DNA of 36,272 nucleotides, taken from the NCBI GenBank assembly GCA_903932505.1, contig CAIZGN010000582.1, positions 1-36,272 of the forward strand, written 5' to 3'. A program made the position numbers and the translations under genes. The notes under the pieces are model-generated. The model worked only from the letters and a program-made list of their open reading frames with translations, did not search any database and was not told where the DNA came from. This document shows, piece after piece, positions 6,308 to 28,609 of the stretch (position 1 is the stretch's first letter; the number at the start of each line of letters is the position of its first letter). This DNA is from Candidatus Hydrogenedentota bacterium. Its GTDB lineage: Bacteria > Hydrogenedentota > Hydrogenedentia > Hydrogenedentales > CAIZGN01.

Positions 6308-6934
6308 ATGAATATCGAGCGAAGGGCGTTCTTGAAACACACGGCGGGCGTGGTGGCAGGCATGGCGGTGGCCGGTGCCGCGATGGCGGAGGAAAAGGCG
6401 AAGGACTGGAAGCCGCTGTTCAACGGCAAAGACCTGACTGGCTGGAAGCCCGAAGGCGGTGCCGTCTGGACGGTGGAGAACGGCACGCTCGTCGGGAAGC
6501 AAGGCCCGAAATTCGCCCCCGGCGATCTCTTCACCACGGAGGAATTCGGCGATTTCGATTTGGAAGTCGAGTACAAGGCGATCTGGCCCGCCAACAGCGG
6601 GGTGTGGTTCCGCTATCAGTCGCCGGAGAAGGCCTATCAGGCGGATATCCTTGAGTACAAAGATCCCTTGGCCTATAGCGGCACCATCTATTGCCCGGGA
6701 AAGCTGTTCATCGCCAAGAACCTGGATCCCAAGCTGGAAAAGAAGGAAGACTGGAACACCATCGCCGTGAAGGCGCAGGGCGACCATCTGGTGGTGTCGC
6801 TCAACGGCAAAGTCACCGGCGATGTGCACGACAACTCGATGGCCAAGGGCCGGATCGGATTTCAGGTGCATCCCGGGGAAGAATTCAAGGACATGAAGAT
6901 TATCGTTCGCAGCATCCGCCTGCGCGCGCTGTAG
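6308..6934 (+). CDS. DUF1080 (3-keto-disaccharide hydrolase) family protein, Tat-exported
   Basis: The 208-residue protein starts with a twin-arginine signal (ERRAFLKHTAGVVAGMAVAGA). Residues about 30-208 are a single concanavalin-like beta-sandwich of the DUF1080 family: WKPLFNGKDLTGWK, ENGTLVGKQGP, GDFDLEVEYKAIWPANSGVW and the closing GRIGFQVHPGEEFKDMKI. Some family members cleave 3-keto-glucosides or 3-keto-disaccharides, and many sit next to Gfo/Idh oxidoreductases, as here (the next gene is 68 nt downstream on the same strand). I chose the ATG at 6308 because GAAGGA lies 7 nt upstream and the Tat signal begins there; an upstream in-frame ATG would put 21 extra residues before the signal. 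Substrate specificity cannot be read from sequence. Confidence 0.9.
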   Translation: MNIERRAFLKHTAGVVAGMAVAGAAMAEEKAKDWKPLFNGKDLTGWKPEGGAVWTVENGTLVGKQGPKFAPGDLFTTEEFGDFDLEVEYKAIWPANSGVWFRYQSPEKAYQADILEYKDPLAYSGTIYCPGKLFIAKNLDPKLEKKEDWNTIAVKAQGDHLVVSLNGKVTGDVHDNSMAKGRIGFQVHPGEEFKDMKIIVRSIRLRAL

Positions 6935-7002
6935 CCGACACCGGTGAACATTTCCGGGGTGCGGCTTTGCCAAGCCCCTCAACCTTGCATGGAGATTCTG
7001 GC

Positions 7003-8397
7003 ATGAAGGATCAAGGACTGAGCCGGAGGGCATTTTTGCTCGCCACCACCACCGCCGCGACTGTGGCCGCCGGTGGATGCGCCACACGGCCGAACACGGC
7101 GAAAGTGGTGCCGGGCAAACAATCCCCCAACGAGCGAGTAATTGTCGGCATGATCGGTTTGGGCGGACGGTGCCGTGGCGTGGGTGCGGACTGCCTCAAA
7201 GTGCCCCAGATGCAGATTGTGGCCGCCTGCGACTGTTTCAAGGTGCGCGTAGATTCGTTTCTGCAAACCGTGGGCAAAGATCAGAACTGGAAGGGCTATC
7301 TCGACTTCCGAGAAATGATCGAGCGCGAGAAACTCGACGCAGTGATGGTGGAAACCACGACCCATGCCCGCGCTTGGGTGGCCTGCACGGCCATGTCCAT
7401 GGGTGTGGATGCCTACATCGAGAAGCCGATGGCTTTGACAATTTCCGAAGGCCGCCATATGGTTCAGGTTGCGCGGAAATACAAGCGGGTGACGCAAGTG
7501 GGCACCCAGCAGCGATCGATTCCCCTGAACATGTGGGCCAGCGACCTCGTGAAGAACGGGGCGATTGGAAAAGTGAAGACGGTATGGGCGCCGAACTATG
7601 TAGCCGCCAGCCGCTGGACGCCCCAACCCGGCCAAGACCTTCCCGAGGGTGGCACCGAGGGTTGGTGGGATCTCTGGACGAACCAGGCGGAATTCCGCCC
7701 CTATCACAAAGAGCTGCACACAAATTGGTCAAAATGGTGGGACTATGACGGCGGTGGCGTTTGTTTCGGTGTCACCGGCTGGGGTACGCACAGCTACGAC
7801 CAAATCCAGCGCGGACTTGGCACGGATGAGACCGGCCCAGTGGAAGTACTGCTTGAGGAACCGATGCGTGAAGAACTCACCGGGAAATTTGACGATCGGA
7901 AGCCGTCCCCGGATGAAACCGGTGCGCCTTATTACTCCATGGTGAAGAATCTCAAGGGCGAACGCGCCAAGGTCAGCATGAAATTCAAGAACGGGACGGA
8001 ACTGAAGCTGCATCTTGATGCAGACAACGCGCCGGGCCTGGGTTGCATCTTCGAGGGCGAGAAGGGTCGCATCGAGATCAACCGCGACATGATATCCGCG
8101 AATCCCAAGGAACTCATCAGTGGACCGGATAATCCCGGCCCGCTGAAAGTCCCCGAAAATCAGCCGCACATTGAGAATTGGATCGACTGCGTCAAAACAC
8201 GCAAGCGCTGCAATGCCGACATCGAATACGGACAGCGTGCCACCTCGCTATGCTACTTGGTGAACATCGTGCGCGATGTCGGTCAGGTCGGCAAAGTGCA
8301 GAAGTGGGATCCGGCCAAGGAACGCTTTACCAACTGCGAAGAAGGCAATGCGCTGTTGTCGCGTCCGCGTCGTCCGGGTTTTGAACTCCCTGCGTGA
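7003..8397 (+). CDS. Gfo/Idh/MocA oxidoreductase, Tat signal, possibly lipidated
   Basis: The 464-residue protein begins MKDQGLSRRAFLLATTT, a Tat signal, and has AAGGC with Cys26 as a possible lipobox. The Rossmann NAD(P) motif is IGLGGRCRG (51-59). EKPMA (140-144) carries the conserved lysine of the family. The C-terminal half is the alpha/beta substrate domain, including a long aromatic insertion around WGTHSYDQIQRGLGTDETGP. Such proteins oxidise or reduce sugar hydroxyls. The export signal is typical of planctomycete-like bacteria, where the cofactor is presumably bound before export. GGAG lies 8 nt before the ATG at 7003. Together with the DUF1080 neighbour it suggests a 3-keto-sugar pathway; the substrate is unknown. 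Confidence 0.92.
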   Translation: MKDQGLSRRAFLLATTTAATVAAGGCATRPNTAKVVPGKQSPNERVIVGMIGLGGRCRGVGADCLKVPQMQIVAACDCFKVRVDSFLQTVGKDQNWKGYLDFREMIEREKLDAVMVETTTHARAWVACTAMSMGVDAYIEKPMALTISEGRHMVQVARKYKRVTQVGTQQRSIPLNMWASDLVKNGAIGKVKTVWAPNYVAASRWTPQPGQDLPEGGTEGWWDLWTNQAEFRPYHKELHTNWSKWWDYDGGGVCFGVTGWGTHSYDQIQRGLGTDETGPVEVLLEEPMREELTGKFDDRKPSPDETGAPYYSMVKNLKGERAKVSMKFKNGTELKLHLDADNAPGLGCIFEGEKGRIEINRDMISANPKELISGPDNPGPLKVPENQPHIENWIDCVKTRKRCNADIEYGQRATSLCYLVNIVRDVGQVGKVQKWDPAKERFTNCEEGNALLSRPRRPGFELPA

Positions 8398-8411
8398 AGC
8401 ATGATTGTGTC

Positions 8412-8449
8412 GCCCCACATTCCCCAGCTGCGGCGCGGGAATGTGGGGC
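8412..8449 (+). other. Intercistronic 13-bp perfect hairpin
   Basis: GCCCCACATTCCC (8412-8424) pairs perfectly with GGGAATGTGGGGC (8437-8449) around a 12-nt loop. It fills half of the 79-nt gap between the Gfo/Idh gene and the HzsA-like gene. There is no T-run after it on either strand, so a classical terminator is unlikely. It could set mRNA stability or expression ratio between the two genes, or be a protein-binding palindrome. Confidence 0.6.
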
Positions 8450-8476
8450 CGTTGTTCATTAAAGGAACCACCCCTC

Positions 8477-11400
8477 GTGAAACGTTTCCTCCTGTTCGCC
8501 TTGAGCCTCGCCACCCTCTTCCCCATTTCGACCGCACAGGCGGTGGAACGGCAGGAAGGCGCGTACGGCAACGCCCTGGACACGCTCCGGGGCGCGATGC
8601 TGGTACCCGCCGACCCTGTGTTCACGACCCTCCCACTCACCGTGGAATGCCGCGTGAAGCTCTTCGGCACCACGGCCTACAACATCATCGCGGCGAATGA
8701 GACCAAGGCGTCCGGCAGCCACTGGGAACTCTTTACCACGCCGGGCGATGGCACGCTGCACGCCTATGTGCCGGGCCGCACCCCTGACCATGTCCACACC
8801 AGCACCGCCATCGCGGATGGACAATGGCATTGGTTGACGATGCTTATGGAAGAGGGGCGGATACGGCTGATGGTCGACGGGGTGGAAAAAGCGAACACGG
8901 AATCCACCTCCACCGGCGCACCGGGCGTTTCCGGACCACTCGCCTTTGGTAGTCTCGCCGAGGGTGGCTTCAACTGCAACGGGGTTATTGACGAACTTCG
9001 GATATCCAAAGGACTGCACACGTCACCGACCGTGCCACAAGGTGAACTGGCTTCCGATGAGACCACAGTCGGACTATGGCATTTTGCGTTGGACGCTTCC
9101 GGCAAGGATGCTTCGCCCGGAAAACACGATGCGCAATTGCGGGCCTCCCAATCGACTTTCCTTGCGGACGGCACCGAAATTCCGGGCGGCATGCCGACGG
9201 CGCTGCAAGCACTTCCCCTGGCCGAAGACCCCGCCCCATCCCGCGCGGCCGTGCTTGAGGTAGCCACGCGTCTACCACTGCACACGGTGGATGCGGGGGC
9301 GGTTCCAGACGCCGCCCTCCGCGAATGGCTTTATGACTTCGTGTGGATGGGAAAAAAGGAATATCCCGACCAGCGACCCGGCGAATCCAAGCCGGAGAAG
9401 GTCAAGGAAGAGGTTTACGATCCGCAATCGTTGATGAGGGAAGAGGATGGCGGGCCCTTGGGCGCGGTCGTCCGGCGCACCCGTGCGTTGTTGGCGAACC
9501 CCGCCTTTTCCGGTGGCACCGACAAGACTGCGGCTTGGGGAAGCGATCTGCAAGCAATTGAATCCGCCCGGGCAATGGTTGCCGGGGATCCGGAGAAGTC
9601 CAAAGCACTGTATCTGGCTGCATGCGCCCTTCGGCGCGAGGTTGCGCTTCGGAATCCTGTGCTGGACTTCGATTCGATCCTGTGCGTGGCGCGCGGGAGT
9701 TTTGAGGGAAGTGTGCGGTCAAACCCGAGTACCGCCGACCCGCAGGGCGGGCATTTTGTCACGCAATACTTCGGGCACAACGCCCTGCCCGGGGGCGGGC
9801 TTTATGTGGTGCGAAACTACAAGACCAAACCGGAAATTATGGACCTACTGAAGGATTCGGTGGTAGAAAACGGCCCGATGAAGGGGCAGAAGCTCGACCA
9901 CGGTGGCTTTGCCACACCCGACCTTTCCTATGACGGGAAAAGCATCGTTTTTGCATGGACGGGAAACAAGGAACATCTTTGGGTCTACTCAAAGGACACC
10001 TGCTTTCATCTTTTCAAGGTCAATGTGGACGGAACGGGTCTAACCCAATTGACCGACGGCGATGTCAATGATTTTTCACCGTGCTGGTTGCCCAATGGTC
10101 GCATTGCGTTCGTATCGGAACGGCGCGGCGGCTATATCCGGTGCTTTTCCGCATATCTCAAGGTGCGCAGTTACACGCTGTTTTCCATGCGGGAGGACGG
10201 GACGGATATCTCGCCCCTGAGTTACTTTGAGACCAGCGAATGGAATCCCTCTGTGAACAACGAAGGGCAGCTCGTCTATACGCGATGGGATTATGTGGAT
10301 CGCGAAAACTGTCTTGGCACTCGTTTCTGGATCAGCGGGGTGGATGGCACGAATCCGCGTGCGCCACACGGGAACTATCCGCTGCCGTACGATACCTTCC
10401 CCGACCATAAGCCTTGGGAAGTGCGGAACGGGCGGGAGTGGGACAGCCGCTTCGGCGCGCCCCTGGTCGAAATGGATATCCATGCGGTGCCGAATTCGCC
10501 GCTCTACCTCTTCACCGCCGCACCGCACCACGGTGAGATCTACGGTTCGTTGTGCATGCTTGACCTGCGCCAAACCGATGACCACCACATGGGACAGATC
10601 AAGCGCATCACGCCGGAGGAACCTTTCCCGGAAACTGAGACGGCCGGACGGCGGCACTACAAATACGGCACCCCGTGGCCATTGAATGAGGACTTTTATC
10701 TTTGCAACGTGTGGGAGAACATGGCGCTGATCGACCGCTATGGGAACAAGGAAGTCCTTTGCGACCTGCGGTCACTGCCCTGTGCCCAAGATGAACGCTT
10801 GCGCATCATCGATCCCATCCCCCTCCGCGCGCGGCCACGACCGGAGAACGAGCCCGCCCCCGCGCCAAGTACGCCCGCCGCATCCCGCCCCAAGGCCACC
10901 ATCGCGGTCATGAATGTGTATGACTCCGATCTGCCATTGCCCGAAGGAGTTAAAATCAAGTGGCTGCGGGTCGTGCAGAATATCCCCAAAACCAACCATG
11001 CCATGGGCGAACCGCTGATCGGCTATGAGCGAGAAAACACCCCGCGCATCCCGCTTGGCATTGTTCCGGTGGAAGAGGATGGCAGCGCCTATTTCGAGGC
11101 GCCGGTGGGCAAGATGCTCATATTCCAGGCGCTGGATGATCACCACATGGCGGTGCAATCCATGCGGTCGTCGGCTTTTGTGCATCCGGGCGAACAGCTG
11201 TCCTGCATGGGCTGTCACGAGAACCCGCAGCGGGCTGCGGCACCGACTGCTTCCCCAATTGCCACGCGCCGCGCACCTTCCAGGCTGGAACCTGAAATCG
11301 GCCCGATCGAGCCGATCAGCTACTATCGACAGATCAAGCCCATCTTCGATAAGACCTGCGTGCCGTGCCACAAGGAAAAGGCCTTGGGCCCGCAGGACAT

Positions 11401-12595
11401 GAGTTATGAAGCCCTGAAGGAAGACTACACCTTCTGGTTCTCTGGAGCGATGTTTACGGACATGACCACCGCCTACAGCGGCGTGCACGGAGGATCGCGG
11501 ACCATCCCCGGGCGTTTCGGGGCGCGCGCCTCGAAAATCGGACAGGCCCTCCTGACGGAATCGCACCGCACATGCGTCTCCCCCGAGGACCGCCTCAAAG
11601 TCACCGTGTGGCTCGACTCCAATTCCCTGCGCCTGGGCGCATACACCCGTGAAGACAAGCAACTCGCGGGTGAACTGGTGTGGCCTGCCATGGATGTGGA
11701 TCCCGCCAACCCGCAGGGTATAGACGGAAGCGAGCCGGGGCTGCGCCACAATTTCTGGCATGAGAATCTTTATGGCCCCTTCCCCATACTGTTTTCAGAA
11801 CACACCCACGACCGCGTCGCCATCATGGACAAGACGGGCAGTATCGTGTGGGAATACCCCGTGCCACATCCGCAGGACGTCTGGATGCTGCCCAACGGCA
11901 ACATCCTCACCACGTATTATCAGGGCGTCCGCGAGGTCACCCGCGACAAGCAGACGGTGTGGGAATTCACGGTTGAAAAGCCCAACGAAATCCCGAACTG
12001 CCAACCCCTTCCTGACGGGAATGTGCTCATTGGCATCGTGGGCCAATGCCGCTTGATCGAAGTCAATCGCAAGGGCGAAATCGTGCACGAGGTTCAGCTG
12101 CAAACCACCGAAAAAACAGCGCACGCGCAATTCCGCATGTGCCGGAAGACACCGGAAGGGACTTATGTCGTCCCCTTCACCGCTGAGGGAGCCATTCGTG
12201 AATACGATGCCTCGGGCAAGGTTATTCGCGAGTTCCCGAAGCAGCCCATGCCCGTAGGTGTGGTGCGTCTGGACAATGGAAACACGCTGATCAGCGCCGA
12301 TGGCAAGGTGACCGAGTACGACCGCAACGACAAGGTAGTCTGGCAGGTACTCCCCCACGAAATCCCGGACATCCAAATCGGCGTGTTGGCAGGCATATCC
12401 AGACTGGACAATGGCAATACGCTGGTCTGCAACTGGAACGCACAGGACAAAGACCGCAAAGTCGGAGCGCACCTTTTCGAGATTACTGATGACAAACGGG
12501 TCGTCTGGCAGATTTCCGGCCCGCAGGTGGGGCAAATGGCGCAATGTCAGGTGTTGGCGGAGGATCTCGCCAGGCCAGCCCCAAGTCTAAAGTAG
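8477..12595 (+). CDS. LamG + HzsA-related dihaem propeller protein with C-terminal ASST/PQQ-like propeller
   Basis: The 1372-residue exported protein has a signal peptide KRFLLFALSLATLFPISTAQA. Residues about 45-205 are a LamG jelly-roll domain ending in LWHFALD. Residues about 475-760 carry TolB/WD40-like blades (PDLSYDGKSIVFAW and relatives), as in hydrazine synthase alpha-subunit (HzsA) relatives. Two c-type haem sites follow: CMGCH at 910-914 and CVPCH at 961-965. Residues about 1115-1360 form a second propeller with repeated 'LxNGNTLI' and 'VVWQ' blades, as in arylsulfotransferase/PQQ families. The GTG at 8477 is chosen because the signal peptide begins there and AAAGGA precedes it. It shares strand with the DUF1080 and Gfo/Idh genes and may take electrons from them. 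The HzsA relation does not imply hydrazine chemistry. Confidence 0.85.
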   Translation: MKRFLLFALSLATLFPISTAQAVERQEGAYGNALDTLRGAMLVPADPVFTTLPLTVECRVKLFGTTAYNIIAANETKASGSHWELFTTPGDGTLHAYVPGRTPDHVHTSTAIADGQWHWLTMLMEEGRIRLMVDGVEKANTESTSTGAPGVSGPLAFGSLAEGGFNCNGVIDELRISKGLHTSPTVPQGELASDETTVGLWHFALDASGKDASPGKHDAQLRASQSTFLADGTEIPGGMPTALQALPLAEDPAPSRAAVLEVATRLPLHTVDAGAVPDAALREWLYDFVWMGKKEYPDQRPGESKPEKVKEEVYDPQSLMREEDGGPLGAVVRRTRALLANPAFSGGTDKTAAWGSDLQAIESARAMVAGDPEKSKALYLAACALRREVALRNPVLDFDSILCVARGSFEGSVRSNPSTADPQGGHFVTQYFGHNALPGGGLYVVRNYKTKPEIMDLLKDSVVENGPMKGQKLDHGGFATPDLSYDGKSIVFAWTGNKEHLWVYSKDTCFHLFKVNVDGTGLTQLTDGDVNDFSPCWLPNGRIAFVSERRGGYIRCFSAYLKVRSYTLFSMREDGTDISPLSYFETSEWNPSVNNEGQLVYTRWDYVDRENCLGTRFWISGVDGTNPRAPHGNYPLPYDTFPDHKPWEVRNGREWDSRFGAPLVEMDIHAVPNSPLYLFTAAPHHGEIYGSLCMLDLRQTDDHHMGQIKRITPEEPFPETETAGRRHYKYGTPWPLNEDFYLCNVWENMALIDRYGNKEVLCDLRSLPCAQDERLRIIDPIPLRARPRPENEPAPAPSTPAASRPKATIAVMNVYDSDLPLPEGVKIKWLRVVQNIPKTNHAMGEPLIGYERENTPRIPLGIVPVEEDGSAYFEAPVGKMLIFQALDDHHMAVQSMRSSAFVHPGEQLSCMGCHENPQRAAAPTASPIATRRAPSRLEPEIGPIEPISYYRQIKPIFDKTCVPCHKEKALGPQDMSYEALKEDYTFWFSGAMFTDMTTAYSGVHGGSRTIPGRFGARASKIGQALLTESHRTCVSPEDRLKVTVWLDSNSLRLGAYTREDKQLAGELVWPAMDVDPANPQGIDGSEPGLRHNFWHENLYGPFPILFSEHTHDRVAIMDKTGSIVWEYPVPHPQDVWMLPNGNILTTYYQGVREVTRDKQTVWEFTVEKPNEIPNCQPLPDGNVLIGIVGQCRLIEVNRKGEIVHEVQLQTTEKTAHAQFRMCRKTPEGTYVVPFTAEGAIREYDASGKVIREFPKQPMPVGVVRLDNGNTLISADGKVTEYDRNDKVVWQVLPHEIPDIQIGVLAGISRLDNGNTLVCNWNAQDKDRKVGAHLFEITDDKRVVWQISGPQVGQMAQCQVLAEDLARPAPSLK

Positions 12596-13061: not shown

Positions 13062-14327
13062 CTAGACCACCGGCTCTTCTTTTCCTGCGTCGAATTTGAC
13101 CACTTTGCCTTCGCGCAGAGACTGCATGCCCATGATTAGGGCGGTTTGGGTGTGGTAGGCCAAGTCGGCGGGACTGTCGGGGTTTCTGTTGCCGGTTTGT
13201 GCGCAATGCACCAGATTCCGCATGTGGAACAGGGTGTTCTCGCCATGCTCGATGGCGAACTTCTGTTCTTCCTTCCCTGCCTTCTTGCTCTCATCGGTGG
13301 GGATGAGCACGATCTCATTTTCCTTGATGGTGAGTGATGCATCCCATCCGCGAATGACCGGTATGCGCATGCCAGCCCCGCGACCACCGGTCGCCTGATA
13401 ATCGTTACCCTGGGTGCCCAGCACGGCCACGGTGATTTTCTCGGGGTAATCGATGAGCATGTTAAACGTGTCCGGCACTTCTCGTTCGGTGTAGCGCCAC
13501 ATACCGCCGGTCGCCACGACTTTTGAGGGCATCTTGACGCCCAAAATATGCAGCACGGGGGTCAGCGAATGCGGGAACAGGTCCGTCACCGGGCCTCCCG
13601 CATAATCCTCATACATGCGCCAGCGGAATAAACGGCTGACGTCGAAATCACGCTTGGGCGCATCGCCCAGAAAGGCCTCCCAGTTGAGGTCGCGGCCCGG
13701 CTTGGCATTCGGGTCATCGATGGGCATACCGCGTTCGCCCCAGTCACCGGTACGGAAGAAACCGCACTCCGCGTGGATGGGTTGCCCGATGGCCCCGTCT
13801 TTCACCAGCTTCTCAATTTGATGCCAGGCGGTGTCCGACATACCCTGCGTACCCAACTGGAAAATGGCGTTGGACTCGGCGGCCACCTTGGCCAGTTCTT
13901 TGATGACGCCGAACTGCCGCCAATGCGTCACAGGCTTCTCGCAATAGACATGCTTACCCGCCTTCAGGGCGTCCATGGCCTGATGCCCGTGGTGGTGATC
14001 GGGGGTGGCGATGGTGACCATATCGACGCGCTTGTCCGCGAGCAGTTCGCGGTGATCCATGTATTTCTTGACCTTCTTGAATCCAAATTTCTCGATGGTC
14101 TTTTCTATGCGCGGGCGATAGACGTCGCAGAGGGCCACAATCTCCACCGTGCCGTCACGTTCCGCCATTTCCTTGAGGGCTGCCAAGTGCGCGCCACCGC
14201 GTCCGCCACAGCCGATCAGTCCGACGCCGATGCGCTCATTCGGGCTCTTCACTTTTTTCGCATGCGCCATTGCACTCGCGGCCCACGCCGTTGCGGCGGC
14301 ACTCGCCATAAACTGCCTGCGATCCAT
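13062..14327 (-). CDS. Gfo/Idh/MocA oxidoreductase with Tat signal
   Basis: The 421-residue protein opens with the Tat signal MDRRQFMASAAATAWAASA, cleaved near AHA. The Rossmann motif is IGCGGRGGAH (38-47). ATPDHHHGHQ (107-116) and EKPVT (130-134) are the usual NAD-side and catalytic-lysine blocks. The C-terminal domain has YEDYAGGPVTDLFPHSL, typical of the exported subfamily common in planctomycete-like bacteria. It is the last gene of a three-gene minus-strand operon (isomerase, DUF6807 protein, oxidoreductase), with a 44-nt gap upstream and GGGAG before the ATG. It is a distant homologue of the plus-strand oxidoreductase at 7003-8397, not a recent duplicate. A sugar or cyclitol substrate is likely; identity unknown. 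Confidence 0.92.
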   Translation of the reverse strand: MDRRQFMASAAATAWAASAMAHAKKVKSPNERIGVGLIGCGGRGGAHLAALKEMAERDGTVEIVALCDVYRPRIEKTIEKFGFKKVKKYMDHRELLADKRVDMVTIATPDHHHGHQAMDALKAGKHVYCEKPVTHWRQFGVIKELAKVAAESNAIFQLGTQGMSDTAWHQIEKLVKDGAIGQPIHAECGFFRTGDWGERGMPIDDPNAKPGRDLNWEAFLGDAPKRDFDVSRLFRWRMYEDYAGGPVTDLFPHSLTPVLHILGVKMPSKVVATGGMWRYTEREVPDTFNMLIDYPEKITVAVLGTQGNDYQATGGRGAGMRIPVIRGWDASLTIKENEIVLIPTDESKKAGKEEQKFAIEHGENTLFHMRNLVHCAQTGNRNPDSPADLAYHTQTALIMGMQSLREGKVVKFDAGKEEPVV

Positions 14328-14371
14328 GGTGTCTTTCTCCCAGTCTTGGTTTATAGGCCTTCGTTAAAAAA

Positions 14372-15307
14372 TTACTTACCCACGGCCTTCTTCCAGGCCT
14401 TGTAGTCCTTCGCCAGTTTCTTCGCGTTCGGTTGTCCGTCATAAAACACGACGCCATAGCGCACGCGCAAGGTCTCACCTTGCTTGAGGGACATGGGTTC
14501 ACGATAGAGGTTGAGTGTGGCGGCCAGATAGGCAAAAATGCCGCCATTGTCCCCCATGGTGAACCATGTGGCCGGATGCCGGGGATTGTCGGGATGCTCG
14601 AACATCGCAATGGTGACGGGCTTGCCATCCGCCTCGGCCTGATAGGCGCACCAGATATCCGGGGTGTTGCGCTCGTCCCCGCGCACGATCGGGCCGGGTT
14701 TGCCGGAGGCGAAAATGAACTTGCCGTTCTTGTCCATGCTCTGAATGAAACGCGCACCAAGCCCGTAGTAGTGGTTTCCTGTGAGTTCCAAGTCACCCGC
14801 GCCATGCGCCGGGGTCAGTTGCGTTTCCCAACTCACCACGCGACCAGAGACTCCCTTGAGTTGCATCACGCCCACAGTGCGCATTTCCGCCGCCCAGGGC
14901 TTGTCCTGTCCCGGGGCGGTCCAGTCCAGCATCTCCCCGAAATGGGTCCAATTCCCGCCACGAACGGTTTCGGTCTTGGAACCGGTAAACTCCCGGTGAA
15001 GCTGTTTTCCGCCCTTCTCGGTTTCTTCCCAGAAGGAGACTTTGTTGATGCCCAGCGCGTACATGAGTGCGTGGTGGTGCTTGTGATCAGACGGGGAATC
15101 GCGCAGAAATTGCACCCCGCCCGGCGTGTAGCATTCGTTCACATAGGGCTTGAAAGGCACCTTTGTGAAAAGATACTTGAGCACCGGCCCCCGGGTGTCG
15201 CGAATCTCGACCGCCTCGTCCCCCATGTTTACCCGCAGGGCGGGCGGGGCTGCGAATGCGGAAAACGATGCTGTCACGCCCAATACCAACACCAGTCTGG
15301 AAACCAT
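14372..15307 (-). CDS. PmoA-like DUF6807 family protein
   Basis: The 311-residue protein has a signal peptide (MVSRLVLVLGVTASFSAFA). The body matches the DUF6807 ('methane oxygenase PmoA', a misleading name) family: RDTRGPVLKYLFTKVPFKPY, SPSDHKHHHALMYA with its histidine cluster (74-79), FHYYGLG-type NHYYGLGARF and the closing YGVVFYDGQ. These proteins are not membrane methane monooxygenases; they occur in carbohydrate loci next to Gfo/Idh oxidoreductases and isomerases, exactly as here. I chose the ATG at 15307 because it begins the signal peptide and is preceded by AGGGAG; the frame is open further upstream into the preceding gene, which is 22 nt away. Confidence 0.88.
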   Translation of the reverse strand: MVSRLVLVLGVTASFSAFAAPPALRVNMGDEAVEIRDTRGPVLKYLFTKVPFKPYVNECYTPGGVQFLRDSPSDHKHHHALMYALGINKVSFWEETEKGGKQLHREFTGSKTETVRGGNWTHFGEMLDWTAPGQDKPWAAEMRTVGVMQLKGVSGRVVSWETQLTPAHGAGDLELTGNHYYGLGARFIQSMDKNGKFIFASGKPGPIVRGDERNTPDIWCAYQAEADGKPVTIAMFEHPDNPRHPATWFTMGDNGGIFAYLAATLNLYREPMSLKQGETLRVRYGVVFYDGQPNAKKLAKDYKAWKKAVGK

Positions 15308-15329
15308 GGCCAATTCTCCCTTGCCCGGC

Positions 15330-16157
15330 TTAGCCCACCAGGGGTTTAAGGTGATCAATACTGCGTTTTGCCTGATCGACGGTGCCGCATTCCACAGAAA
15401 ACACGACATCCTGCGGCATATCCCGGCACAGGTCGATAACTTTGCCCCAGTCAATCACACCATCGCCACAGGCACAGCCCACGGGCGTGCCGGTGACTTT
15501 GCCGCGCTCGGCGTCCGATTGCTGCACCGAGATATCTTTGGCGTGCAAATGCACCAAGCGGTGTCGCACACGCACCAGCCACTCGAGCGGATCCTGTCCG
15601 GACAGATAGCTGTTGCCCGTGTCGAAATTGATGCCGATCGCCGGGGAATTCACCAACGCGTGAATCCGGTCGAGTCCGTCCGGCGTCTTGCTGTATTGCT
15701 GGTGCGGCTCAATGCCGATTTTGATATTGCGTGGTTCGGCGAACTTGGCCGCTTCCATGAGCACATAGCGCATGAGAACGTGATCTTCCACCACGGTCGT
15801 CCAAGCGGGCTTGGGACCTTCGTCCGTGTTGATGACGGGCGCGCCAATCTCGGCAGCGAAACGCACAGCTTGCTTGAGGTACTCCACGCTGATTTCGGGC
15901 TTGCACAGGGGGCAGTGCGCGGAAAGTCCGGAACATTTCACGCCCGCCTTGTCGCAGGCCCGTTTAATTCGAAGCGGATCATCGAGCATCGAAACGCTGT
16001 GAAAATATCCTGCTTCGCTCAGCAGTTCCCGGCCCCAATGCACCATGGGCTCCACGTATTCGTATCCCAACTCAGCGGCCTTTTCAATGCCCCACTCAAA
16101 GGGCTTGTCCTCGTGCCGAACAAATTCGAGGTTGATACCGATGCCAATCTTACCCAT
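15330..16157 (-). CDS. Sugar phosphate isomerase/epimerase (xylose isomerase-like TIM barrel)
   Basis: The 275-residue cytosolic protein has the AP-endonuclease-2/xylose isomerase-like barrel. Metal ligands expected for the family are visible: Glu150 in GIEPH, Asp179 in NFDTGN, His205 in HLHAKD and Glu256 in SVECG. There is no signal peptide, in contrast to its two operon partners. GGAGG lies 9 nt before the ATG. It is the first gene of the operon, and probably isomerises, epimerises or dehydrates a (keto-)sugar formed by the oxidoreductase. Cysteine-rich stretches around SAHCPLC (79-85) and GCACGDG (227-233) are worth noting. Exact reaction unknown. Confidence 0.9.
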   Translation of the reverse strand: MGKIGIGINLEFVRHEDKPFEWGIEKAAELGYEYVEPMVHWGRELLSEAGYFHSVSMLDDPLRIKRACDKAGVKCSGLSAHCPLCKPEISVEYLKQAVRFAAEIGAPVINTDEGPKPAWTTVVEDHVLMRYVLMEAAKFAEPRNIKIGIEPHQQYSKTPDGLDRIHALVNSPAIGINFDTGNSYLSGQDPLEWLVRVRHRLVHLHAKDISVQQSDAERGKVTGTPVGCACGDGVIDWGKVIDLCRDMPQDVVFSVECGTVDQAKRSIDHLKPLVG

Positions 16158-22316: not shown

Positions 22317-24065
22317 CTACTTTGTTCCGATGCTGACGAGCATCTTATCTGTCCTCAGGTAAATCCTGTTATCGAGAAATGCGGGGGTTGCGTAGACCGG
22401 AGCACCCATATCGACATCGCCGATGGATTCGAATTGCGCGGCATCCTTGAAGATATGCACAATACCTTTCTTGTCGGGCAGGTAAATGCGGTCACCCACC
22501 AGCACCATCGATGCGCTGAATCCCTCGTCGTACTCATGGGTCCACAGGGACTTTCCGGTCTGCCGATCCAGACAGACCACCTCGCCGCGCGAGGTGGCGA
22601 TGTAGAAATGGGCGGCGGAGGCCACCGGACTTGAGACGTCGGGCAGGATATCCTCGTAGATCCACTTTACCTCGGTCTTTACGGCAGTGCCGTCCTTGCT
22701 GACTTGGATGGCCGAGGCCTTGGCGTATTCATTCGCCACGAAAACGATGCCGTCGGCATAGGCGGGGGACGGGGCCACCTCACCATCGAGACAGGTCACC
22801 TTCCACAGTGCCGCACCCGTCTTCGGCTCGTACGCATCCACATCTTTTTCCGAGACGAGCACGAGTTGTAGTCCGGCGGGCGTGGGGATGCACGAGGGCG
22901 ACCCCCACGAAATCTTGGTGCGCTTGGCGACCCACGCTTCTTTGCCGGTGGCGGCATCAAAGGCGGTCAAGCGCGGCGTTGCGCGATCATCGAACTGCAC
23001 ATACACCAGCGAACCCAGCGCGATAAGCGATGAGGCATGCCCGTAGTGGTTGTCCGGCACACCGAGGTTCTTGCCCCACTGCGGATTGCCATCGGCATCA
23101 AAACAGGCAAGGTCGCCGTTTGGAAACATGGCGAAAACCCGTTTGCCCAGCGCAGCCATCGTGGGGGGGGCATAACCGGTTTCGTCCTCTATTTTTGCGC
23201 TCTTGTCCGGCGTTCCCGGGAATTTCTCGAGGGCTTTTTTCCAGAGAAGCGCACCGGTCTCCGTGTCGAAGGCATAGACTTCACGGGCATCCTGCGTGGC
23301 GCCGCACAGGAACACGCGATTGCCCCAAACCACGGGGGAATTGTTGCCGGGCAAAGGCACCTCCGTCTTCCAACGGATATTCTGTCCGGCGGCGACATCC
23401 CACTGCGTGGGCGCGGTTGTGAAATGCGCGACGCCATAGTTCCCGGGTCCCCGGAAGGCGGGCCACTGCAATTGCAAGTCATCCCAAGTGGGTTCGGCAT
23501 CGGCGACGGGAGCGGTCGGGGCTTCACCCGGTGCCGGGGCGGCAGGCGGTGCTTCGGTGGCAGGAATTCCAACCGGCGTCAGCCAGGCCGCGCCCAGTGC
23601 GAACACCGCCAGCACCATACCGCCGGTGATGAGATAGCTTTTCGCCTGCGCCGCCATTTCCCAATAATTCGTCGCGACATATTCAATGCGCGGTAGCACA
23701 GGTCGCCAACGCGCGGCCAGCTTGAAGGAAATCACAAAGACGACCACCCCGGCGAGCAGCAACTTGGCCCCCATGGCCAACTGCGCCTGGTTGGTAAAGA
23801 AGGCTTTTCGCGCGAGCAGATCCATGGCGCGAATATCCTCCACCAGCTTGGGGTCCGCGTCCGGCGAGGTGTTGAGCTGCTTGCGCAGGGCAATCAGGCC
23901 GGGGTTGTCGAGCGGCGCGACCGATTGCATCTGCAGGTAGTTCGCGATGAGCAGCACGGAAACGATCAACACGAATAAACCGGACACGACCGCCACGGTG
24001 GCGGCCAGTGTCCAGGCATCGGGATTCCCCGCGAATGTTTTCTGTTTGGCTTCAGGAATGGGCAT
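22317..24065 (-). CDS. Membrane-anchored PQQ-type beta-propeller protein
   Basis: The 582-residue protein has three membrane segments (about 18-41, 96-117 and 143-165), a Pro/Ala-rich linker (165-195), and then a PQQ-binding-like propeller. WPAFRGPGNYGV (201-212) is the usual propeller entry, and blades with 'AxDxxTGxxxW' recur (YAFDTETGALLWKK, AFDAATGKEAW, CLDRQTGKSLW). No catalytic residues of true quinoprotein dehydrogenases are evident, so it may be structural or a PQQ-independent scaffold. I use the ATG at 24065 with GAGGAAG upstream; it overlaps the end of the NapH-like gene by 14 nt. A longer frame exists only inside that gene. It is the last gene of the operon. Confidence 0.88.
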   Translation of the reverse strand: MPIPEAKQKTFAGNPDAWTLAATVAVVSGLFVLIVSVLLIANYLQMQSVAPLDNPGLIALRKQLNTSPDADPKLVEDIRAMDLLARKAFFTNQAQLAMGAKLLLAGVVVFVISFKLAARWRPVLPRIEYVATNYWEMAAQAKSYLITGGMVLAVFALGAAWLTPVGIPATEAPPAAPAPGEAPTAPVADAEPTWDDLQLQWPAFRGPGNYGVAHFTTAPTQWDVAAGQNIRWKTEVPLPGNNSPVVWGNRVFLCGATQDAREVYAFDTETGALLWKKALEKFPGTPDKSAKIEDETGYAPPTMAALGKRVFAMFPNGDLACFDADGNPQWGKNLGVPDNHYGHASSLIALGSLVYVQFDDRATPRLTAFDAATGKEAWVAKRTKISWGSPSCIPTPAGLQLVLVSEKDVDAYEPKTGAALWKVTCLDGEVAPSPAYADGIVFVANEYAKASAIQVSKDGTAVKTEVKWIYEDILPDVSSPVASAAHFYIATSRGEVVCLDRQTGKSLWTHEYDEGFSASMVLVGDRIYLPDKKGIVHIFKDAAQFESIGDVDMGAPVYATPAFLDNRIYLRTDKMLVSIGTK

Positions 24066-25374
24066 GGTCTTCCTCTGTCGGGCAATTCCCTTTTTCCACG
24101 GGACAATACGCAAAACAACGGCCGCAGCTCAGGCACGCGCCGCGATCCATTTCATAGTCCACCCGCCCTCGCACGCGCGAAAAACGCACCAGTTTCCCCA
24201 CCACGACCAATCCCATGAACGCGCCCAGGCACAAGGCCCCGATCGCGAAGGAGGATTGGATGGCATTGGCCTCAGCGTAGAGTTGCTGCGGCGTTTGTTT
24301 GCCCGCGTGGAAGGCGTCACTGTCAATCGTGCGGTCTTTGAACTCGCCCCGCTCCTCGCCGGAGATACGCTCTGCCAACTGCACTTTGGGGTGGAGCTTC
24401 GAGAGAAATCCGTGCGACAAATATCCGGCCCCGGCACCCAATCCCATGATCAAGGGCGCGGCCACCAGCAGCCATCCAACACGTCGCGCACCTTCGCGCC
24501 GGGAAAGTGGGCGTTCCTCGGGCGTGGGCATTTCGATGGCCCCATAGGGACAGGAAGCCTCGCACAGGCGGCATTGTATGCATGCCGTGGGGGGGATTTT
24601 CGCATGCCATTTCGAGAACATGGACATCCAGCGTAACAGCACGCCATAGGGGCACAAAAAGCGGCAATAGGGGCGTCCGATGAAGACACCCAGCACCAGA
24701 AAAATCCCGCCGACCAGCAGCATATTGAAACTCGCGCCCTGGCGGAAGAAACCGATAAAGGGGTCATAGCGGCAGATGAGATAGCCGGTATTAGTCGTCA
24801 TGCCGAGGACGACCAAGCCCAAATACAGGTATGCACCCAATCCGAGCACGGCTTCCAACGGCTTTCCCAATTGCACAGGGCGGATGGCCACCAGTTCCTG
24901 CACTGCGCCCAGCGGGCACACCCCCGCGCAGAATACCCGCCCCCAGAAGAGGGCAGCGAGCAGGGGTAGCACAAAAAAGACCAGCACCAACCACGGTAAG
25001 CCCACCGCCGGGTCGAGGAGCGCGGCCAACACATTTTGCAGTGAACCCACGGGGCATACACAGCCCTTGCGCCAGAAACCGAAATAGAGAACCGAGGCCA
25101 CAGCCAGCGCGAATAGTCCCGCCCGGGAACGGCGCACCATCACGAGATAGGCGGAGAGAATGAGCGAAGCAGCCAGCACCACAGTGTCCAACACGGGATA
25201 ATAGCGGGCCGGCATCGGCATTTCGACATGCGGTTGCTTGTAACCCGACTCGAACTCCGGCATGGGAAAACGGAATTCCGCGTTCGCGGCGGCGCAGACG
25301 AGCCACAACCCCAGAATGGCAAGCACGAGGACTTTGACATAGCTCGGGCCGTTGTTTGTTGGGTGACTTTTCAT
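24052..25374 (-). CDS. NapH/NosR-like membrane 4Fe-4S protein
   Basis: The 440-residue polytopic protein has around six to seven membrane segments. CAGVCP (149-154) and CRFLCP (237-242) are the CxxxCP pairs of NapH, NosR and CcoG proteins; CVCP (105-108) is a further cysteine motif. Two cytoplasmic ferredoxin sites follow: CIQCRLCEASCP (265-276) and CLSCGRCFAYCP (414-425). NapH passes electrons from quinol to NapG and on to periplasmic partners. Here no nitrate reductase subunit is present; the co-transcribed proteins are propellers. Its ATG overlaps the stop of the NapG-like gene (ATGA). A loop of about 60 residues (325-375) has no Cys and looks extracytoplasmic. Confidence 0.88.
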   Translation of the reverse strand: MKSHPTNNGPSYVKVLVLAILGLWLVCAAANAEFRFPMPEFESGYKQPHVEMPMPARYYPVLDTVVLAASLILSAYLVMVRRSRAGLFALAVASVLYFGFWRKGCVCPVGSLQNVLAALLDPAVGLPWLVLVFFVLPLLAALFWGRVFCAGVCPLGAVQELVAIRPVQLGKPLEAVLGLGAYLYLGLVVLGMTTNTGYLICRYDPFIGFFRQGASFNMLLVGGIFLVLGVFIGRPYCRFLCPYGVLLRWMSMFSKWHAKIPPTACIQCRLCEASCPYGAIEMPTPEERPLSRREGARRVGWLLVAAPLIMGLGAGAGYLSHGFLSKLHPKVQLAERISGEERGEFKDRTIDSDAFHAGKQTPQQLYAEANAIQSSFAIGALCLGAFMGLVVVGKLVRFSRVRGRVDYEMDRGACLSCGRCFAYCPVEKGNCPTEEDHAHS

Positions 25375-25934
25375 GCGGGCGGGGGCGTCTCCTTCGGGCG
25401 GGTCTTCAGCAAATAGGGGTCATGGGCGGGCACTCGCACAAAAGCGTTTGAGGGACAGGCCCGGGCGATGGAGCATTCGTTGCAATTCACGCAAAGGTCC
25501 TGCTTCACCTGAAGGTAGAGCGAGCCGTTGCCGAACATGCTGCAGCCTTTCACGCACTTGCCGCAACCCACGCATGCCGCCTCGTCAATGCTGTACTGGA
25601 AATACGGCACTTCAATGAATTTACGTTGAAGCGCCGCAGTCGGACACAACTGATTTTCCGCGCCGGTATTCCGGGCCTTCGCCCCCGGCTGGAGATAGCC
25701 GCCGCAAAGGTCGCAATACCCGCAAATCTGAAAGGAGTGGACGCACTTGACCGCCGAGGGGTTCAGCACACAGTTGGTGGCGCAACGGCCGCACTGCACG
25801 CATTTGGCCGGGTCAATCTGCCAACGCATGGATTCTGCCGAACTGCGCTCCGTGCGCACGGCCAAACCGCCGCACACGGCAGCCGCACCGGCCACACGCA
25901 TGAAATCCCGGCGGCAGAAGCACTTTTCGCTCAT
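25371..25934 (-). CDS. NapG-like Tat-exported ferredoxin (four 4Fe-4S sites)
   Basis: The 187-residue protein starts MSEKCFCRRDFMRVAGAAAV, a Tat signal with RRDF, as needed to export a prefolded Fe-S protein. Cysteines fall into four groups: C45/48/51/55, C64-C71/74/77 with C97, C121/124/127/131 and C148/151/154/160. This is the NapG/MauM layout. Two more cysteines (5 and 7) are inside the signal and would be removed. I use the ATG at 25934, with GGAGG 7 nt upstream, because the upstream extension would precede the Tat motif. It overlaps both neighbours by ATGA. Likely role: periplasmic electron carrier partner of the NapH-like protein. Confidence 0.92.
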   Translation of the reverse strand: MSEKCFCRRDFMRVAGAAAVCGGLAVRTERSSAESMRWQIDPAKCVQCGRCATNCVLNPSAVKCVHSFQICGYCDLCGGYLQPGAKARNTGAENQLCPTAALQRKFIEVPYFQYSIDEAACVGCGKCVKGCSMFGNGSLYLQVKQDLCVNCNECSIARACPSNAFVRVPAHDPYLLKTRPKETPPPA

Positions 25935-26119
25935 GGCGCGGCCTCCACCCGGTTGGCACAATCCTTATTGACGGGGCACGCGGGACAAGCGCCGGGTGCG
26001 CAGGCCTGTACCTGCCGACGAGCCCCGAAAAAAAGGGCCAGCGCGGCCAAGCCACCGGCCAGACCCAAGCGCGCCATGCCCGCGAACAGTTCACGACGAC
26101 TTTCGTTGGTGGGGTTCAT
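25931..26119 (-). CDS. Small Tat-type Cys-rich protein (62 aa)
   Basis: The protein starts MNPTNESRRELFAGMARLGL, with a twin arginine at 8-9 and a hydrophobic stretch (19-32). The exported tail has only four cysteines: C40, C45, C48 and C54 (CAPGACPACPVNKDC), enough for one metal or Fe-S centre. It overlaps its neighbours on both sides by ATGA, so it is a real coupled gene of the operon and not a chance frame. I know no named family. A small accessory subunit, redox shuttle or assembly factor of the NapG-like protein is a reasonable guess. Confidence 0.8.
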   Translation of the reverse strand: MNPTNESRRELFAGMARLGLAGGLAALALFFGARRQVQACAPGACPACPVNKDCANRVEAAP

Positions 26120-27132
26120 GCCAGCTTCTCTTTCTCTTCAAAGATCAAAACGGCACCCTGTTCACGATGGACGACCAAAACCCGGTTGTTCTTGTCCACG
26201 GCCAAATCGCGCAGGGGTGTTTCAATATCGCAGCATGCGGCTGCCTGAACATTCACCCCGAGAATATCCGGCGAAGCCACCACGGCGAGCATTTTCTGGT
26301 CGGGGGAATAGACCTTCACGCGGGAGAGACCCTTTTCGAGGGTGACCAGCAGACCATCACTCCGAAAGGCGATGTGTATCGGATTGCAGCATCCGGCGAA
26401 GCCGTCCAATTCGATGGAGGGGCGATACCAAGAGGCGGCGAGGTCGCCATTGTCCCGGTATTGCTCCAGCCCGTGCTTCCCGGGATTCACCGCCCACAAC
26501 GCGCCCTGCTTGTCAAAACAGACGTCGAAATACGGACTCGGCACGACGAAACCGGCCATTTCATTGGCTTCATGCTTGCCGTCAAAACGCCCCAACCGCT
26601 TCCCCTGTCGATCATAGCGCAGCAGAACCCGGTTCCCCGCGTCCGCCACGTAGACATCGGTATCATTCACCGCAATTGCCGTGATGTACCCCCGCGCTCC
26701 GAGGTCTTCCCAGCTGCCGGTCTTGACGCCGTCCGCCCCGAGGACATCCACGCGCCCCCGCATCCCCAACAAAATTCCACCGTCCGGTGCCACCGCGATG
26801 CAGTCCGGCGTGCCTTCCAGCACAAACCGGGCCTTCTCTTTGGCGTCCGCACCATAACGTACCAGTGCTTTCTCCCCCGCCACATAAACATCTCCATCGG
26901 GACCAATGGCCAGCGAGGACAGGTTGGGGATATTGGGCGTCAGCTTTCCCGCTGCCTTGAATTTGATCAGGGCGGGGTCGACCTTCGTGTAATCGTCCAC
27001 GTTGTAGACCAGTGCATTGGAGGGTTCCTTGGGTTTGTCGCGGGCAATGAGGAGCCCGGCAAACCCGGCCGCAGCCGCAGCCATCCCCCCCCACACCCAT
27101 TTTAGAAAGCCTTTTCGGTTCATCGCTTCCAT
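26116..27132 (-). CDS. NHL-type six-bladed beta-propeller, membrane-anchored
   Basis: The 338-residue protein has an N-terminal membrane anchor (about 11-30, NRKGFLKWVWGG, lacking the full twin arginine) and then NHL blades: LSSLAIGPDGDVYVA, PDCIAVAPDGGILLG, TAIAVNDTDVYVADAGNRVL, YFDVCFDKQGALWAVNPGKH and a closing RDLAVDKNNRVLVVH. Two vicinal cysteine pairs, C248-C249 (GCCNP) and C300-C301 (ACCDI), are striking and may bind metal or form redox disulfides. The ATG at 27132 is chosen (AAGGAA upstream); a second ATG lies three codons on. It overlaps the small Cys protein by ATGA and follows the PQQ-type gene with a 34-nt gap. Confidence 0.88.
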   Translation of the reverse strand: MEAMNRKGFLKWVWGGMAAAAAGFAGLLIARDKPKEPSNALVYNVDDYTKVDPALIKFKAAGKLTPNIPNLSSLAIGPDGDVYVAGEKALVRYGADAKEKARFVLEGTPDCIAVAPDGGILLGMRGRVDVLGADGVKTGSWEDLGARGYITAIAVNDTDVYVADAGNRVLLRYDRQGKRLGRFDGKHEANEMAGFVVPSPYFDVCFDKQGALWAVNPGKHGLEQYRDNGDLAASWYRPSIELDGFAGCCNPIHIAFRSDGLLVTLEKGLSRVKVYSPDQKMLAVVASPDILGVNVQAAACCDIETPLRDLAVDKNNRVLVVHREQGAVLIFEEKEKLA

Positions 27133-27166
27133 GGATACATTTCCTTATTCACGCGGCCTGCGCGCT

Positions 27167-28609
27167 TCACTGAGCCGCCGCGCCAATCTCGACACAGGCC
27201 ATGCGCTTGGAATCCCGCAGCAGCAGACGCGTACCCGCGAGGGCCAGCGGCCCCCAGGCATCTTGCCCATCGAAAATCCGCGCCTGACCGAGTTGCTCAT
27301 ATTTTCCGGCGTCCGCCTTGATCATGGTCAGCAGACCATCGTCACCAAGAATAAAAAACTTGCCGTCTGCCAGCAGGAAGGGACCGAGTCCGAAGCGGTT
27401 TTCCGGCCCGCTCGACCATGCCAGCGTTCCGTCCGGTTTGTAGCACACGAACTGCCCCCGCAGCGCACCACCGTCTTTCGGCATGATACCATAGAGCAGA
27501 CCGCCCGTATAGATGGGGGTTTGCTGTTCACTCGCGAGGAAATCCGACGGGCTCTTCTGAAACAGCGACTCCGCCGTGAACTTTCCGCCGTCTGCGTGCA
27601 CCTGCATCATGAGGCTTCCGTAGCCATACCCAGCGGTGGCGTAAATCTTGCCCTCATCCAGCGGCACGGGCGAAGGCGCGGCCACGCGTGCATTCCAGGG
27701 CAATTCCCAGAGCAGGGTTCCGGCATCGGCGGCATCCGCCGACACGCCCACAATACCGCCCAGCGCGGAGTACACATACATGCGCTTGCCCGCCAAGGTC
27801 ATGGGCATGATGGACGCGTGCGACATGTTCCAGAGCTTCGGGTTCGGTGTTTTCCACACCGGCTTGCCGGTGGCCAGATCCACCGCCATGAGAAGGGCAT
27901 CCTTTCCTCCCGGGGCGAGAATGAGTTTGTCGCCGTCAATCATGGGGCATTGCCCCGCGTACCACAGCGGCTCGGCAGTGCCGTATTCCGCCTGCAAATC
28001 GATACCCCACTTAAAATCGCCGGTTGCAGGACTGAGGCACACCACATGACAGCGCGGGCCCAAGGTGATGAGGTATTCGCCGGTCAAGGCGGGGACGGTG
28101 CGCGACATGCCGTGATTTCGCTTGGTGCTCACCGCGTAGGACCGCCGCCAAATCTCCTTGCCGTCGGCCAGTGAAAAACAACGCGCCGCGTCCGCTTTTT
28201 TTTGTTCATCGTAATCCAAGACAAAGACCCGGCCCTGTCCCACGACGGCCGCCGCATGGCCCTCGCCCAATTCGACTTGCCATAATACCTTCGGGCCGTC
28301 TTTTGGCCAGGTGGATGCCAGCGCGGGCGCGTCTTTAACGATGTTGTCGCAATCTTTTCCCCGAAATCGGGGCCACTCCCCGGGCAAGGTCGCAGGGGTT
28401 CCGTCAAAGGTTTCCAGTTTGCCTTTGAGATCGGCCACCGCCCCTGTTTCCGGCATGGACTCCGGACGGCCATCCTTTCCTGGCAGGCTCACGGGCAAGT
28501 CGTGCGCAGGGTCATATATGAACCACCCACCCAGCACGGCAAGCGCCACGGCAGTGCTGAGCACCAGCACAAAGAGCGCTTTCTTCGGCGGGCCGGGACT
28601 CTGCATCAT
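27167..28609 (-). CDS. PQQ-type beta-propeller protein, signal-anchored
   Basis: The 480-residue protein has one N-terminal membrane segment (about 10-31) and a periplasmic propeller. WPRFRGKDCDNIV is the entry motif, and blades such as CFSLADGKEIWRR, CLSPATGDFKWGI and AVDLATGKPVWKTPNPK are clear. It is related in architecture, not in close sequence, to the last gene of the operon. It starts directly after the TAG stop of the J-domain gene with no spacer (ATG-ATG). Its ligand is unknown; as with the other member no dehydrogenase catalytic residues are apparent. Confidence 0.88.
   Translation of the reverse strand: MMQSPGPPKKALFVLVLSTAVALAVLGGWFIYDPAHDLPVSLPGKDGRPESMPETGAVADLKGKLETFDGTPATLPGEWPRFRGKDCDNIVKDAPALASTWPKDGPKVLWQVELGEGHAAAVVGQGRVFVLDYDEQKKADAARCFSLADGKEIWRRSYAVSTKRNHGMSRTVPALTGEYLITLGPRCHVVCLSPATGDFKWGIDLQAEYGTAEPLWYAGQCPMIDGDKLILAPGGKDALLMAVDLATGKPVWKTPNPKLWNMSHASIMPMTLAGKRMYVYSALGGIVGVSADAADAGTLLWELPWNARVAAPSPVPLDEGKIYATAGYGYGSLMMQVHADGGKFTAESLFQKSPSDFLASEQQTPIYTGGLLYGIMPKDGGALRGQFVCYKPDGTLAWSSGPENRFGLGPFLLADGKFFILGDDGLLTMIKADAGKYEQLGQARIFDGQDAWGPLALAGTRLLLRDSKRMACVEIGAAAQ

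Follow-up and report, generated by a model that had tools for sequence, protein, structure and literature searches.

The 36,272-nucleotide contig CAIZGN010000582.1 of a Candidatus Hydrogenedentota bacterium (assembly GCA_903932505.1), analyzed here over its whole length and referred to as the window, carries a gene at 8477 to 12595 on the forward strand whose product is, as predicted from its translation and a structure model, an exported c-type cytochrome with two haem sites that folds like the alpha subunit of hydrazine synthase (HZS). The reading that we favor, with moderate confidence, is that the protein serves as the alpha-type subunit of a periplasmic haem enzyme resembling HZS, that it belongs to a separate clade bearing a LamG domain, and that in this host it apparently lacks its usual beta-gamma partner. 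This reading is supported by the domain composition, the predicted fold, the invariant haem cysteines, the clade, the adjacency of beta-gamma genes in two phyla, and the co-occurrence of the two genes across genomes. The window is one entire contig of a 5.86-Mb genome (740 contigs, 97% complete), whose nearest named relatives are Hydrogenedentota assemblies.

Domain organization and predicted structure

The gene is a single open frame of 1372 amino acids with a GTG start; the list of open reading frames (ORFs) places the start at a TTG at 8405, which would add extra residues ahead of the signal peptide. The Pfam families matched above curated cut-offs are Laminin_G_3 (residues 43 to 181), Laminin_G_2 (97 to 160), PD40 (522 to 553), HZS_alpha (827 to 915), and Mala_s_1-like (1132 to 1320). 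The original prediction of a LamG domain, a TolB-like propeller, two CxxCH motifs, and a second, C-terminal propeller in one exported chain was confirmed by Pfam and in the translation.

A model of residues 200 to 1372 (pLDDT 85.2, pTM 0.87) had the structure of hydrazine synthase from Kuenenia stuttgartiensis (5C2V) as its first Foldseek match (E = 8.8e-23) and 3NO2 as its second, and a core model of 741 residues (350 to 1090, pLDDT 83.7) also returned 5C2V first. Superposed on chain D of 5C2V, the core gave a Z score of 30.4 and a root mean square deviation of 3.3 over 555 residues, covering the range 53 to 806 of 5C2V and therefore near full length, whereas the match to TolB was lower, with a Z score of 23 to 24. 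The proposed relationship to the alpha subunit, HzsA, is borne out by this fold match.

Conservation of the haem-binding motifs

The family alignment has 40 rows and includes distant paralogues. C910, C913, H914, C961, and C964 are invariant in all of them, H965 is present in 39 and E915 in 38; with the motif residues so conserved, the motifs are not there by chance. Both motifs are also invariant in the 13 orthologues aligned. Among 35 named loci, 8 of which are contigs already in the first orthologue set, all 34 that cover the first site have CxGCH there, and the second motif is complete in 32 of 34, the exceptions being L091 and L086; the His of the motif is replaced by Asn in L086. The original prediction had named non-conserved haem-site cysteines in homologues as the result that would speak against it, and the cysteines proved invariant.

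The column of the haem-alphaI tyrosine of HZS is occupied by Q918 in the window protein and by Tyr in only 4 of the 40 family rows. According to the accessible part of PMC12607021, haem alphaI of HZS is ligated by Tyr591 and His587, with Tyr591 as the proximal ligand. A two-residue gap at this tyrosine is described for clades I to III in the accessible part of PMC12758564, and the exact register of Q918 is uncertain. This residue bears on the idea that the protein is a true hydrazine synthase alpha subunit from an unrecognized anammox bacterium, which would agree with the shared fold, the two CxxCH motifs, and the HZS_alpha domain. However, the protein scores 33.4 bits with the HzsA model NF052339, against a cut-off of 800, it has Q918 where the tyrosine is expected, and no beta-gamma gene was found in its genome. 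We regard the idea as extremely improbable, and the same proposal was rejected by the authors of PMC12758564 for their own homologues, as stated in the accessible part of that paper.

A further pair of cysteines was observed. Among the rows of the 40-row family alignment, C941 occurs only alongside C1048, in the Hydrogenedentota orthologues and in L076, whereas C1048 alone is also found elsewhere. Both are present in the other 12 rows of the 13-orthologue alignment, where they are a candidate disulfide judging from the sequences, and both are replaced in the window protein, which may be a small sign of drift.

A LamG-bearing clade with a variable C-terminal propeller

In a maximum-likelihood tree of 63 cores, 35 rows including the window protein form one clade with a support of 100/100. 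The tree holds no anammox HzsA sequences, so that the position of the clade relative to HzsA cannot be read from it, and its deep joins involve long branches and were flagged as possibly false. By submitter title, the members belong to Hydrogenedentota, Armatimonadota, Verrucomicrobiota, and Lentisphaerota; in some taxonomies, Lentisphaerota is merged into Verrucomicrobiota. All 30 full-length orthologues scanned contain both LamG (at E ≤ 0.001) and HZS_alpha, and LamG is therefore as constant as the core. The clade thus represents an alpha type of its own, marked by LamG and spread over several phyla, within the little-studied HZS-like family.

The C-terminal propeller is less constant. It is present in 28 of the 35 clade rows, in 4 of them in degenerate form, and the other 7 proteins end at or just before the same FWHEN boundary. 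The fusion that the original prediction had proposed to trace is thus seen well beyond this genome but not in every member. When presence of the propeller was assigned by hand to the 35 rows, Fitch parsimony required 6 changes, compared with a mean of 6.6 for shuffled labels (168 of 500 shuffles were as low); because this is no better than shuffled labels, the order of losses and gains cannot be set. A single origin of the propeller was considered and not upheld by this test. Three Hydrogenedentota genomes that belong to a single genus (L051 to L053) have a related core gene next to a separate propeller gene, an arrangement that suggests that the two parts work together.

The best structural match of the C-terminal propeller is 3NO2, an uncharacterized Bacteroides protein with a Mala_s_1-like propeller (Z score 32.2, root mean square deviation 2.2 over 260 residues, 30% identity), and the next best are propellers of the LDL-receptor and sulfotransferase types, with Z scores of 22 to 24. 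This domain had been labelled as arylsulfate sulfotransferase (ASST)/PQQ-like; it scores 20.7 bits with PQQ_2, against a cut-off of 27.6, and 16.7 and 16.0 bits with the two Arylsulfotrans families, against cut-offs of 24.2 and 27, and its nearest structure is 3NO2. These values also bear on the suggestion that a haem protein has been fused here to an enzymatic propeller, either a sulfotransferase-like one or a quinoprotein. ASST structures are matched at a Z score of about 22, and H1216 and R1220 are conserved in 30 and 31, respectively, of 34 propeller rows, but with the ASST and PQQ families of Pfam below their cut-offs, the propeller lacking from 7 of 35 clade rows, and H1216 and its surroundings lost in 4 more, we hold an enzymatic propeller to be quite improbable.

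The HZS_alpha family as a whole is greatly expanded in Hydrogenedentota, with matches in 46 of 68 genomes, up to 21 in each and 7 in the genome of the window; there were none in 14 control genomes. At L101, L102, L167, L168, L052, and L053, at least two different HzsA-like alpha paralogues are clustered beside one beta-gamma gene, and some paralogues in such clusters carry three CxxCH motifs.

Association with a beta-gamma partner

Orthologous loci were collected from 40 distinct contigs (48 loci, 8 of them second copies), some with short flanks at contig ends. A tblastn search of these loci and the window found an HZS beta-gamma homologue at L048 and L073, adjacent to the orthologue and on the same strand, and in G052, a genome of the same Hydrogenedentota genus as G048, a beta-gamma gene also adjoins the orthologue and is co-directional with it. 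In G048 and G052, the in-frame ATG of the beta-gamma gene overlaps the stop codon of the orthologue or begins two bases after it. At L073, on the Verrucomicrobiaceae contig QYQL01000025.1, the beta-gamma gene ends 59 bp 5' of the GTG of the orthologue. The beta-gamma homologues match the NCBIfam model NF052342 with E values of 2.7e-44 and 3.5e-53, and that at L073 matches chains B and C of 5C2V with E values of 1.8e-33 and 8.6e-26. In the genome of L073 (G076), HZS_alpha and beta-gamma are each matched once, by the two genes of this adjacent pair. G004 has three genes in a row, for beta-gamma, a Rid-family protein, and a core that shares 54% identity with that of the window protein; the G004 core has no LamG match at E ≤ 1e-8.

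The two genes also co-occur across genomes. Of the 16 Hydrogenedentota genomes with an orthologue at 55% identity or more, 15 have a beta-gamma match at E ≤ 1e-80; of the 25 genomes of the named loci, 22 have one at E ≤ 1e-70. Each of these counts includes the genome of the query itself. When G004 is counted, 16 of 17 genomes with the orthologue carry a beta-gamma gene, compared with 21 of 43 without it (Fisher p = 0.001, without correction for kinship). The genome of the window is the exception among the 17.

Several results weigh against this association. By genus, the co-occurrence is weaker (8 of 9 versus 14 of 30, p = 0.052, uncorrected for kinship). In the 97% complete genome of the window, the best beta-gamma match reaches only E = 4.8e-11 and covers query residues 72 to 165, in the propeller part; the NCBIfam beta-gamma model likewise matches the propeller part only, at E = 3.5e-16, and a search for CCP_MauG gave no match. 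Of 50 beta-gamma loci inspected with flanks of about 1.5 kb, only 3 adjoin this alpha type, whereas 20 adjoin a different alpha paralogue that is 25 to 36% identical to the window core, and 27 have no alpha core within the flank. A strong beta-gamma match was not found in three genomes of the named loci (G074, G083, and G092). An all-against-all BLAST of the orthologous loci revealed no conserved neighbor beyond close relatives. Part of the neighbor search took the longest ORFs greedily and can pick antisense frames; the clusters that recur widely appear to represent the protein and its own alternative or antisense frames, and the others are shared by few, mostly close, relatives. Because no beta-gamma gene was found in the genome of the window, the association is invisible from the window alone.

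An alternative reading is that the protein is a stand-alone dihaem electron carrier or sensor at the cell surface that needs no beta-gamma partner. Its LamG domain and C-terminal propeller would then bind a polymer, its haems would pass electrons to soluble cytochromes, and the adjacency in G048, G052, and L073 would reflect secondary recruitment. The lack of beta-gamma and CCP_MauG matches in the host, the lack of a widely conserved neighbor, the three genomes with an orthologue and no strong beta-gamma match, and the few loci at which beta-gamma adjoins this alpha type agree with such a role. However, it does not account well for the high frequency of beta-gamma genes in orthologue-bearing genomes, for the genome in which the only alpha and the only beta-gamma gene lie side by side, or for the stop and start codons that abut in these two Hydrogenedentota genomes, G048 and G052. 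We consider a stand-alone role possible but not probable.

A two-domain Rid-family gene (Ribonuc_L-PSP, with a weaker FkbO/Hyg5-like match) was observed in the beta-gamma flank at 26 of the 30 Hydrogenedentota loci L109 to L138, and was not found in that flank at L109, L110, L118, and L130; the observation takes in L109 to L138, L165, and L167 to L170. No such gene was found next to the beta-gamma genes neighboring this alpha type in G048, G052, and L073. The genome of the window has a Rid-like homologue of 33% identity (G000:C626:16986-17864), though no beta-gamma gene was found there. Rid enzymes hydrolyze imines.

Neighboring genes and the proposed link to carbohydrate oxidation

The features of the gene and of the region upstream of it are listed in Table 1.

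Table 1. Features of the haem-protein gene and its upstream region in the window
Feature	Coordinates	Strand	Basis or remark
DUF1080/3-keto-disaccharide hydrolase gene, twin-arginine-type leader	6308..6934	+	PF06439, E = 3.6e-35; neighbor outside the system
Gfo/Idh-type dehydrogenase gene, twin-arginine/lipobox-type leader	7003..8397	+	Profile matches; neighbor outside the system
Perfect 13-bp inverted repeat, terminator-like hairpin with a 12-base loop and no T tract	8412..8449	+	z = -3.99
AAAGGA, plausible ribosome-binding site	8461..8466	+	Ten bases 5' of the GTG; read from the sequence
LamG, HzsA-like dihaem, and propeller gene	8477..12595	+	Translation, Pfam, aligned orthologues
Putative Sec-type signal peptide, residues 1 to 22, ending in AQA	8477..8542	+	Translation read by eye
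LamG/concanavalin A-like domain, residues 43 to 181	8603..9019	+	Pfam PF13385, 58.6 bits (cut-off 27.6)
TolB-like (PD40) beta-propeller, about residues 389 to 786	9641..10834	+	Core model versus TolB, Z about 23 to 24; PD40 match
HZS_alpha middle domain, residues 827 to 915	10955..11221	+	Pfam PF18582, 68.2 bits (gathering cut-off 26.6)
Haem-binding motif I, CMGCH, residues 910 to 914, followed by E915	11204..11218	+	Family alignment; at the end of the HZS_alpha domain
Haem-binding motif II, CVPCH, residues 961 to 965	11357..11371	+	Family alignment; beyond the HZS_alpha domain
C-terminal propeller, about residues 1101 to 1364, Mala_s_1-like/3NO2-like	11777..12568	+	Pfam PF22701, 91.6 bits; structural match to 3NO2

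The DUF1080 and Gfo/Idh genes that had been noticed upstream are indeed present and lie on the same strand. The nearest NCBIfam model of the Gfo/Idh gene is glycoside 3-dehydrogenase, although the score is under the cut-off of that model, and the pair (6308 to 8397) resembles exported 3-keto-glycoside enzymes. The hairpin separates the Gfo/Idh gene from the haem-protein gene. In a promoter and terminator scan of the window, the number of matches was about the same as in shuffled sequences, and the 12-base loop is beyond the limit of the scan. An Rfam scan of the window returned only a tRNA.

From this arrangement, it had been proposed that the haem protein links carbohydrate oxidation to periplasmic electron transfer, as the electron-transfer partner of a sugar oxidation carried out by the two upstream products. 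The three genes occupy about 6.3 kb on one strand and all have export leaders when read by eye, and the nearest model of the dehydrogenase fits a role in sugar oxidation. A Gfo/Idh gene is likewise present at 6 of 25 further retrieved loci, which belong almost exclusively to HzsA-like paralogues or sisters, and at L051 the Gfo/Idh and core reading frames overlap. However, in tblastn searches of the 48 orthologous loci, the upstream DUF1080 gene was found at none and a Gfo/Idh-like gene at only 2, which is the kind of missing linkage in relatives that the original prediction had named as speaking against it, and a strong hairpin stands between the genes. Moreover, the 5.86-Mb genome has 81 Gfo/Idh matches, about one per 72 kb, so that a nearby copy is unremarkable and needs no special link. 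The proposed link was accordingly not upheld, and we now think it very doubtful.

Other features of the window lie on the reverse strand. The region 13062 to 16157 contains Gfo/Idh, DUF6807, and xylose-isomerase-like TIM-barrel genes and is likely a sugar-catabolic cluster. The region 22317 to 28609 contains two PQQ_2 propeller genes, a gene for a NapH-like membrane polyferredoxin, one for a small 4Fe-4S ferredoxin, and a propeller gene with weak similarity to NHL.

Proposed function

If the protein is the alpha-type subunit of an HZS-like enzyme, as we favor, it would hold haem I in a His-coordinated site beside the TolB-like propeller, and the ligand would be the histidine of CxGCHE and not a tyrosine; with haem I held in this way, the chemistry of hydrazine synthesis would be unlikely. 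The beta-gamma partner, which combines a propeller with a MauG/CCP-like dihaem domain, would supply or take electrons. The LamG domain may anchor the complex to a glycan or surface, and the C-terminal propeller may be an optional module for docking or for binding a ligand. Complex formation and electron flow, like the roles of LamG and propeller and the haem ligation, are what we infer from the observations above. In the host of the window, the protein may act alone or with an unrecognized partner, or the partner gene may be missing from the assembly.

A broader speculation is that HZS-like alpha-beta-gamma enzymes are widespread beyond anammox bacteria and act on another nitrogen compound, for example by oxidizing amines or the amino-sugar units of polymers. 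In this clade, LamG would keep the enzyme attached to the polymer, and the imine product would be cleared by the Rid-family enzyme that is encoded next to most of the examined Hydrogenedentota beta-gamma genes. We consider this rather unlikely.

Comparison with known systems

The window protein shares with HzsA the core fold, the HZS_alpha middle domain, and two CxxCH motifs in the same order, with CMGCH aligning with CSGCH. It differs in that its first motif continues as CxGCHE, compared with CxGCHY in HzsA, with no tyrosine at the haem-iron ligand position, and in the addition of LamG and a second propeller. In the hydrazine synthase complex, beta-gamma is encoded in the same genome, whereas none was found in the genome of the window, although it was found in most orthologue-bearing genomes. 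The N-terminal domain is a Laminin_G_3 domain that is fused to the HzsA-type core in every orthologue scanned. Unlike the C-terminal domain, 3NO2 is a separate protein, and its aligned part is without haem motifs; ASST (3ETT) and Cpz4 have the propeller fold in common with this domain, with Z scores of about 22 to 23.5.

An open-access literature search found no paper joining "hydrogenedent" with "hydrazine synthase". Opitutus terrae is a verrucomicrobium. It is included in clade I of the four clades (I to IV) of HZS homologues outside anammox bacteria that are described in the accessible part of PMC12758564, while the names Hydrogenedent-, Armatimonad-, and Verrucomicrob- are absent from the main text of that paper. 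Those homologues have lost key HZS residues, and their alpha and beta-gamma genes are co-located in some genomes. The accessible part of PMC10732223 reports hzs-like genes in Phycisphaerae and KSB1 and proposes that the HZS-like family is broader and acts on other substrates. The homologues of both papers are thus of the same superfamily as the window protein and similar to it in the loss of key residues and in the occasional proximity of alpha and beta-gamma. However, the accessible parts of the two papers focus on co-located alpha and beta-gamma pairs and make no mention of LamG or of a second propeller on alpha, and the LamG-bearing alpha type is not described in those parts or in that of PMC12607021.

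Hydrazine synthase was once hypothesized to have originated de novo for lack of homologues, as recounted in the accessible part of PMC12758564. As far as their accessible parts go, PMC12758564 and PMC10732223 argue instead that there is a wider family of haem proteins, which in PMC10732223 is extended to other substrates. To this family, the present analysis adds the distinct alpha type that bears LamG and occurs in several phyla, and the Verrucomicrobiaceae contig QYQL01000025.1, on which the sole alpha gene and the sole beta-gamma gene found in its genome lie side by side, offers a simple case for testing the function of the family outside anammox bacteria.

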